From: Xanthobacteraceae bacterium
Lineage (GTDB): Bacteria; Pseudomonadota; Alphaproteobacteria; Rhizobiales; Xanthobacteraceae
NCBI GenBank assembly: GCA_019745775.1
Contig: JAIESR010000063.1
Coordinates: forward strand, 1-64,000
Reading direction: 5' to 3'
Length of the DNA stretch: 64,000 nucleotides
Part shown: piece after piece, positions 17,667-22,078 of the stretch
How the letters are laid out: the number at the start of each line of letters is the position of its first letter
Position numbering within the stretch: the stretch's first letter is position 1
Notes under the pieces: model-generated
Database searches by the model: none
What the model saw: only the letters and a program-made list of their open reading frames with translations
Told to the model about the DNA's origin: nothing
Program-made: the position numbers and the translations under genes

Positions 17667-18329
17667 TCAGCGCGGCTTCAGCCGCTCGACCGCCGGCAGA
17701 AGAATGACGGCGGCGAGGATCGTCACCACCAGCGTGACAAGCTCGACCGTGAGCTCCTGCGCAAAGCCGGATTGCGGCCCGTAGATGACCGCCGGCACGA
17801 TCAGCGCGAACAGCAGGCCTGCAAGTGCGCAGCAGCCGATCCACCGGCCGAGCCCGCTTGCGGCGGGACGCAGGATCAGCGCCTGCAGCGATCCGACAGC
17901 CGTGCTGATCACGACACCCGCAATGGCCGCGCCGAACATGAGGCCCAGGACGACGGCGGTTTCGACCGGACCCGGATCGGTCGGGATTTCCGGCGTGAGC
18001 CAGGCAAACGCGGATACCGATCCGAACACCGCGCCGAACACGACGTAGAGCGCGAGCCAGGTGCGCATCGGGAATGCCGGCAGCTTGCTGCGCAACACCA
18101 CGCCCGAGAGATAGCCCAGCACGAGCAGGCCGGCGCTCAGCGCCCCGGTCGCAAACAGCACAAAGACCGTCTGGAGGGCGCCGGAAGCGCCCTTCTCATT
18201 GACGCCGAGCGCCTGGCCGATCAGGAACGCGACGAACGTCAGCGCGACATTGATCACGGCGCCGATCGCATTGGCCTTGATCCACTGGGAGCCGATGCTT
18301 CGATGCACGGTGTGCGACCCGTTGCTCAT
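17667..18329 (-). CDS. Membrane protein of unknown function, paralogue A
   Basis: This 220-residue protein has about six hydrophobic segments and is not recognised. It shares with the next gene upstream the blocks GSQWIKANAIG, LRSKLPAFPM, WLTPE, VGSLQALILRPAA and YGPQSG.A.EL, so the two are tandem duplicates. The gene is nine bases downstream of paralogue B and on the same strand as phaB, so it is probably cotranscribed with the PHB genes. It is convergent with the DUF985 cupin gene, three bases away. Confidence 0.75.
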   Translation of the reverse strand: MSNGSHTVHRSIGSQWIKANAIGAVINVALTFVAFLIGQALGVNEKGASGALQTVFVLFATGALSAGLLVLGYLSGVVLRSKLPAFPMRTWLALYVVFGAVFGSVSAFAWLTPEIPTDPGPVETAVVLGLMFGAAIAGVVISTAVGSLQALILRPAASGLGRWIGCCALAGLLFALIVPAVIYGPQSGFAQELTVELVTLVVTILAAVILLPAVERLKPR

Positions 18330-18338
18330 ACCATCACG

Positions 18339-19004
18339 TCAGCGCGGCTGCAGCCGCAGCACCGCAGGCAGCATGACGAAGGCCTGAAAGATCATCAGCG
18401 CCCATATCACGAACTCGCTCGTCAGCTCTCGTGCGAGCCCCGATTGGGGCCCGTAAAGTCCCGCTATCAGCGCAACAAGCGTAACGGGTGCACCGGCGAA
18501 GGTGGCGCACGCTATCCAAAGACCGAGGCCTTGCGCGGCGGGGCGGAGAATGAGCGCCTGCAGCGACCCAACCACAACCGAGATAATTGAGCTTATGACG
18601 ACACTGCCAATTGCAGCCGCGACAATATCCGCTCTCACGGAATCGAGATTTTGCTCAGTTTCTGGCGTTAGCCAGCTAAAGGCTTGGACCAAGCTCGAGA
18701 TCACGCTGAGGACGAAGTACAAAGCAAGCCAACGCTGCATCGGGAACGCCGGCAGCTTGGTGCGAAGTACAACGGCGGACAGGTAACCTAACACAAGAAA
18801 ACTGCTCGTCATTGCGGCGCTTGCAACCACGACAAATGCTGTCTGGAGCCCGACGGATGCCGGCGGCCTATTGATCCCGAGAACCTGCCCAGCCGGGAAC
18901 GAGGCAGATGCCGACGCCGTCCACAGGGTGACTCCGATCGCGTTGGCCTTGATCCACTGGGAGCCGATCGTCGGACGCGTCGTACCGTCCGGCGCGATGG
19001 TCAC
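18339..19004 (-). CDS. Membrane protein of unknown function, paralogue B, coupled to phaB
   Basis: This 221-residue protein with about six hydrophobic segments is a tandem paralogue of the next gene, with the same order of conserved blocks (IGSQWIKANAIG, LRTKLPAFPM, WLTPET, VGSLQALILRPAA, YGPQSGLARELT). The GTG start at 19004 overlaps the phaB stop by four bases (GTGA), good evidence for translational coupling to acetoacetyl-CoA reductase. Its base composition looks less GC-rich than phaB. No known domain was recognised. Confidence 0.75.
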   Translation of the reverse strand: MTIAPDGTTRPTIGSQWIKANAIGVTLWTASASASFPAGQVLGINRPPASVGLQTAFVVVASAAMTSSFLVLGYLSAVVLRTKLPAFPMQRWLALYFVLSVISSLVQAFSWLTPETEQNLDSVRADIVAAAIGSVVISSIISVVVGSLQALILRPAAQGLGLWIACATFAGAPVTLVALIAGLYGPQSGLARELTSEFVIWALMIFQAFVMLPAVLRLQPR

Positions 19005-19826: not shown

Positions 19827-21080
<1,254 letters not shown>

Positions 21081-21273
21081 TTAACGGCTCCAATTCTTGA
21101 TTAGACATGGCCGTCCCGTTGAACCCTGTCAATTGGAAGCCCTGCGGACCAGCTTTGCGGTTCAGCCCGGTCAAAGGCCTGGTGTTCCCGCCCCAAATGG
21201 CTGACAAAACGATGGCTTGCCCGCTTGGAAAAGGTCTATGCTCCAAAGCCGGGGCTGGAGTTGACGTCGAACA

Positions 21274-21483
21274 ATGACTGAGGCCGGGACACCGCTGGGC
21301 ATCAACAGATACGCCAATCGGCGGCTCTACGATCCGGTCGCGGGCGCCTATCGGACGCTCGGCGACCTGGCCGTCCTCGTTGAGGACGATGAGGATTTTG
21401 TCGTCGTCGGGGCCGGGACCGGCGGGGACATCACCCAGTCGGTGCTCAAACAGATCATTGTCGAGCGTAAGTACCATGGCTAA
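21274..21483 (+). CDS. Mini-PhaR: isolated PHB/PHA accumulation regulator DNA-binding domain
   Basis: This 69-residue protein consists only of the N-terminal DNA-binding domain of PhaR. It reads INRYANRRLYDPVAGAYRTL and later EDFVVVGAGTGGDITQSVLKQI, matching KKYANRRLYNTGTSSYVTL and EDFVVYDAKTGDDITRSVLAQI in the full-length PhaR just downstream. It ends after ERKYHG, and its last eight bases overlap the phaR start, so phaR is probably translated by coupling. As the domain is repeated in full in phaR, this is a truncated duplicate, not a frameshifted 5' end. It could compete for operators, form mixed dimers or be a decaying copy. Confidence 0.75.
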   Translation: MTEAGTPLGINRYANRRLYDPVAGAYRTLGDLAVLVEDDEDFVVVGAGTGGDITQSVLKQIIVERKYHG

Positions 21484-22078
21484 TCCATCGGAACCCGTCA
21501 CCATCAAGAAGTACGCCAACCGGCGGCTCTACAACACGGGCACTTCGAGCTACGTCACGCTCGAAGACCTCGCCGCGATGGTGAAGGCCGGCGAAGACTT
21601 CGTGGTCTACGACGCCAAGACCGGCGACGACATCACCCGATCGGTGCTGGCGCAGATCATCTTCGAGCAGGAGAACAAGGAAGGGCAGAACCTTCTGCCC
21701 ATCAACTTCCTGCGTCAGCTGATCCGCTTCTACGGCGATTCCATGCAGATGCTGGTTCCGCGCTATCTCGAAGCCTCGATCGAGTCGCTGACGCGCGAGC
21801 AGGAGAAGTTCCGCCAGCAGATCGCGCAGGCTTTCGGCACGGGCGCGTTCGGCTCGCTGGGCCCGCTCGAAGATCAGGTACGGCGCAACATGGAGATGTT
21901 CCAGCGCGCCTTCACGATGTTCACGCCGTTCGCCAAGCGTGAAGGCCAAGGCACCGACGCGCCGCCGCGGCCGGCCGGCGCCGGCGGTGGCGGAACCGAC
22001 GAGATCGACGATCTCAAACGCCAGATGGAGGAGATGCAGAAGCGTCTCGACCGCCTCGGGAACAAGGATAACGGCTGA
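21476..22078 (+). CDS. phaR: Polyhydroxyalkanoate synthesis repressor PhaR
   Basis: PhaR represses phasin and PHB genes and is released when it binds nascent PHB granules. The 200-residue protein has the PHB accumulation regulator DNA-binding domain (about residues 8-70), then a second region with LLPINFLRQLIRFYGDSMQMLVPRYLEASIE, which contacts PHB or mediates oligomerisation, and a C-terminal coiled coil (DEIDDLKRQMEEMQKRLDRL). It starts inside the end of the mini-PhaR gene and is divergent from phaAB. Confidence 0.95.
   Translation: MANPSEPVTIKKYANRRLYNTGTSSYVTLEDLAAMVKAGEDFVVYDAKTGDDITRSVLAQIIFEQENKEGQNLLPINFLRQLIRFYGDSMQMLVPRYLEASIESLTREQEKFRQQIAQAFGTGAFGSLGPLEDQVRRNMEMFQRAFTMFTPFAKREGQGTDAPPRPAGAGGGGTDEIDDLKRQMEEMQKRLDRLGNKDNG

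Follow-up and report, generated by a model that had tools for sequence, protein, structure and literature searches.

A short one-domain paralogue of PhaR overlapping phaR in a Xanthobacteraceae bacterium: an old tandem duplication and a possible modulator of PhaR

PhaR constitutes the main link from stored PHB to gene expression. In Bradyrhizobium and Paracoccus, the native regulator is a tetramer (PMC10888616). With regard to DNA binding by truncated PhaRs, the literature is in conflict: a segment comprising residues 1-106 of Ralstonia PhaR acts in E. coli as a repressor of the phaP promoter from which PHB granules cannot detach it (PMC3079617), whereas Paracoccus PhaR lacking residues 73-195, and thus truncated after residue 72, is cited in the same paper as having lost the ability to bind DNA. 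Proteins consisting of a single PHB_acc_N domain are already known to databases via the Pfam model, while our literature searches found no description of a version residing in the phaR operon with a conserved stop/start overlap.

Here, we analysed a window, meaning the whole stretch of 64,000 nucleotides taken from contig JAIESR010000063.1 of a Xanthobacteraceae bacterium, in which a short open reading frame directly precedes phaR.

Organisation of the phaA-phaR locus

The features of the locus are as follows:
19827-21002, minus strand: phaA (acetyl-CoA acetyltransferase), the divergent neighbour, a frame of 392 codons including the stop
21204-21251, plus strand: conserved phaR-promoter block ACAAAACGATGGC..., with TATGCT at 21237-21242; the same block stands before phaR in relatives
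21274-21483, plus strand: short ORF of 69 aa with a single PHB_acc_N (PhaR DNA-binding) domain, ATG at 21274 and stop TAA at 21481-21483
21476-21483, plus strand: 8-bp stop/start overlap ATGGCTAA of the short ORF and phaR, read from the sequence
21476-22078, plus strand: phaR, full-length PHB-responsive regulator of 200 aa, ATG at 21476 and TGA at 22076-22078

The short protein matches PHB_acc_N (Pfam PF07879; E 1.3e-18, 67.3 bits against a cut-off of 25) over residues 10-66 of 69, and with one domain above the curated cut-off and nothing else it is a one-domain PHB_acc_N protein. The granule-binding domain PHB_acc (PF05233) gave no Pfam match in the 69 residues and is present in phaR, whose product carries both domains (PF07879, 8.4e-31; PF05233, 1.1e-18) and reaches 155 bits against the PhaR equivalog TIGR01848 of NCBIfam (cut-off 109.45), a threshold under which the short protein stays with 52.2 bits. 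An ungapped BLASTP alignment to PhaR residues 1-66 shows 35 of 66 residues identical (53%, E 6e-21), a likeness in sequence that is far beyond chance, and the GC content by codon position (0.70/0.41/0.80) is similar to that of phaR (0.63/0.40/0.86). The original prediction, that a 69-residue frame repeats the DNA-binding domain of PhaR and then stops, with phaR starting eight bases before its end, is thus confirmed by Pfam and BLASTP and by the overlap at 21476-21483.

AlphaFold modelled the 69 residues (mean pLDDT 83.5) as three strands, a helix, a strand and a helix, which are the secondary elements of PhaR 1-69, and the whole DNA-binding fold of PhaR is accordingly predicted to be complete within this length. 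Searching solved structures by sequence yielded no trustworthy relative of PhaR, and searching them by fold nothing convincing (best Foldseek E 0.26; best Z 4.6 in a second look).

Wherever both genes were found (65 loci), phaA and phaR are divergent. They stand 395-590 bp apart where the short gene is present, and the 57 loci lacking it have a median gap of 274 bp (range 156-488). The promoter block takes the form ACAAAACGGTRGCC, then GAAA, then a TATGCT-like hexamer, one simple pattern recovering it in 53/66 loci; it lies 60-147 nt from phaR where the short gene is missing and 270-312 nt in the six loci that have it, an upstream shift of about the length of the insert. The short gene lies between phaA and phaR and follows this promoter block immediately ahead of phaR, a position from which it should be the leading gene of the operon. 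It would then be transcribed from phaR's own promoter, and translation of phaR would be coupled to it via the ATGGCTAA overlap. A search of the 500 bp preceding phaR, the surroundings of the window promoter included, found no PhaR box of the published type (YGCRNYGCR).

Two further observations concern this region. The promoter-like block itself is strongly conserved before phaR across the family (about 45 relatives) and has no match to the published PhaR box. Near the pha genes, two neighbouring ORFs on the minus strand (17667-18329 and 18339-19001) encode hydrophobic, membrane-like proteins, which are 53% identical over 217 residues and form a second old tandem pair.

Distribution and origin of the short gene

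Of 391 genomes of the family searched with Pfam, 14 have a second PHB_acc_N copy. In six of these, each from another genus, it immediately precedes phaR (the window's genome, G042, G053, G027, G144 and G125), so that the pair, which the original prediction had proposed to look for in related genomes, was found in five other genera; the remaining eight carry the second copy elsewhere or on another contig. Outside the family but within the order, 2/378 genomes have a second copy, both on other contigs. The ATGGCTAA overlap with phaR is identical in the window, G144 and G042, and the short proteins of the latter two end in HG. A plasmid search with the short protein gave no match and therefore no sign of mobile spread there, and in a scan of genome contigs only full PhaRs from other orders were among the matches listed. 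Lateral transfer of the short gene is not favoured, because its synonymous divergence resembles that of phaR in the pairs closest to the window.

Other PHB_acc_N arrangements were seen away from phaR. Stand-alone ORFs in G048, G005 and G402 (L035, L037 and L146) end soon after DITRVLLA-like motifs and encode even shorter PHB_acc_N proteins, and L036 (G011) carries at 1580-2071 a frame of 163 aa for another PhaR-like protein, which is divergent, has two parts and lies outside the phaA-phaR locus.

Within the window's genus (eight genomes), an intact copy is found only in the window's genome. Its nearest relative by PhaR, G002 (88% identical), has a relic whose frame is broken and which has lost a large internal part, but which shares promoter, start and end with the short gene of the window. 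In G007, the next relative in the genus, the leader is joined to phaR and there is no short gene, while G035 of another genus has a relic again; a profile made of the six copies picked up no trace in the other sampled loci. Mapped onto the PhaR tree, the intact copies require six changes, and given the relics, an old gene that was lost several times is the simplest interpretation. The short gene is thus dispensable, having decayed or been lost repeatedly, and the absence with decay in close relatives that had been named as counting against a function was found in part, namely as the broken relic of G002 and the empty locus of G007.

Of 44 positions invariant in 66 PhaRs, the window copy keeps 27 and that of G144 31, the residues lost from the window copy including DAK, E and R of the DAKTGEDITR block. 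The short copies have features of their own: P-x-x-G in five of six, at a place where all PhaRs compared have T-G-T-S, and V/I-E-D in four of six, where PhaRs have VK. A tree of all PHB_acc_N domains had little resolution. The six tandem copies group together on one side of a modestly supported branch (76/58), and branches are long. In the AU test, pairing with the own PhaR as sister was rejected for the window (0.007), G144 (0.025), G042 (0.022) and G125 (0.040), was borderline for G027 (0.056) and was not rejected for G053 (p 0.17); since the G053 copy also lacks P-x-x-G, it may derive from a separate duplication. Synonymous divergence of the short ORF and of phaR is alike (0.45 and 0.49 for window-G144, 1.12 and 0.94 for window-G042) and therefore fits joint inheritance.

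That the 5' part of phaR was duplicated in tandem long ago, giving a one-domain paralogue between promoter and phaR, is well supported. A single duplication origin of all six copies is favoured by these sequence comparisons, and stops short of proof because fast-evolving copies could attract each other. A recent duplication specific to this genome, or an artefact of its assembly, might be suspected from six other genomes of the genus, none of which shows an intact copy, but has a negligible probability: it is refuted by the same pair in five other genera, by the AU test against the own PhaR as sister, by the G002 relic, which shares start and end, and by an identity to the own PhaR (53%) that lies well below what a recent copy would show. 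The partial tandem duplication that had been proposed therefore stands as to its origin; it is, however, old and common to several genera and not specific to the window's genome.

Selection on the short gene

A codon model of four short copies gave an omega of about 0.15, with neutrality rejected (p 1e-15), against 0.055 for the same part of phaR, all omega figures being rough given the long branches and only 60-odd codons. Judged in this way, the copies are a real gene family under purifying selection overall, with a constraint weaker than that on PhaR. With the window branch left free, omega was 0.79 on this branch and 0.12 elsewhere in the analysis of four taxa (difference p 0.034; against 1, p 0.84), and 0.33 in that of three taxa, where it was not significant either way (against 1, p 0.26). 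The constraint on the window copy thus looks weak or recently relaxed, and the dN/dS check suggested earlier has a divided outcome, the family being constrained and the window branch being indistinguishable from neutral.

These values, together with the broken relic in the closest relative, the missing gene in G007 and the relic in another genus, would suit a decaying paralogue which has no protein function in the window's genome and serves at most as a leader keeping phaR translation coupled, a use that the frame could retain through the overlap of stop and start. Counting stops alone, a frame would have stayed open with a chance of 0.35-0.46 at 0.2-0.3 substitutions per site; the chance falls to 0.02-0.06 under neutral decay at the same divergence if frameshifting indels are assumed to amount to 5% of substitutions. 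The frame of the window is nevertheless open, its codon-position GC is PhaR-like and the other copies are clearly constrained. Such fading of the gene is rather improbable in our estimate, and for the window's genome in particular it is a serious rival to a functional protein.

Possible roles and comparison with known systems

We give about even credence to the reading that the short gene is an old one-domain paralogue co-transcribed with phaR, which is likely a modulator of PhaR, dispensable and weakly constrained in the window's lineage. Retaining the whole predicted DNA-binding fold of PhaR without its granule-binding and C-terminal part, the short protein would be made in step with PhaR and be blind to PHB, and it would most likely modulate PhaR through mixed oligomers or weak competition at PhaR operators. 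As native PhaR is a tetramer in Bradyrhizobium and Paracoccus, mixed oligomers of the short protein and PhaR are conceivable. A regulatory role of the short protein is possible.

The original prediction had assigned it a stronger role, in which the short protein alone binds PhaR operators, competes there and keeps the targets repressed even when PHB sequesters PhaR. This is chemically reasonable in the light of the Ralstonia 1-106 segment and of a fold that is predicted to be complete in 69 residues. However, the tested segment is 37 residues longer, and the Paracoccus truncation reportedly lost binding (PMC3079617), whereas the window protein ends already at residue 69; moreover, it is without several PhaR-invariant residues, has no other oligomerising part, and its operon lacks the YGCRNYGCR box within the region searched. 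We consider repression by the short protein on its own unlikely, and the reported loss of binding by the cut Paracoccus PhaR makes mixed oligomers or a fading function at least as likely.

Returning to a modulator of PhaR, a more far-reaching version is possible and is put forward tentatively: the short protein might be a naturally evolved antagonist or partner of PhaR, ancient in origin and supplied at a fixed ratio from the phaR operon, which alters how PhaR occupies phasin promoters, does not itself sense PHB and has repeatedly decayed or been lost in a PHB-storing family. If this is true, a co-transcribed DNA-binding domain blind to PHB would set the gain of the circuit from within and would be nature's equivalent of the engineered PhaR domain. 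Close relatives in which the gene is intact, a relic or absent also allow a comparison of what becomes of the PHB circuit once the short protein is lost.

Compared with PhaR (TIGR01848), the short protein is alike in the sequence of the DNA-binding domain, the predicted fold, the phaA-phaR locus and the phaR promoter block, but differs in having neither the PHB-binding domain nor the C-terminal helices and in lying below the equivalog cut-off. The dispersed one-domain PHB_acc_N proteins (e.g., those of G020, G048, G347 and G279) resemble it in their single domain and their length of about 55-70 aa; they do not stand beside phaR, however, and form no single group with the tandem copies in the domain tree. 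Engineered Ralstonia PhaR 1-106 (PMC3079617) likewise is a PhaR DNA-binding domain without the full granule-binding domain, whereas it is man-made, extends over 37 more residues and includes part of the PHB_acc region.
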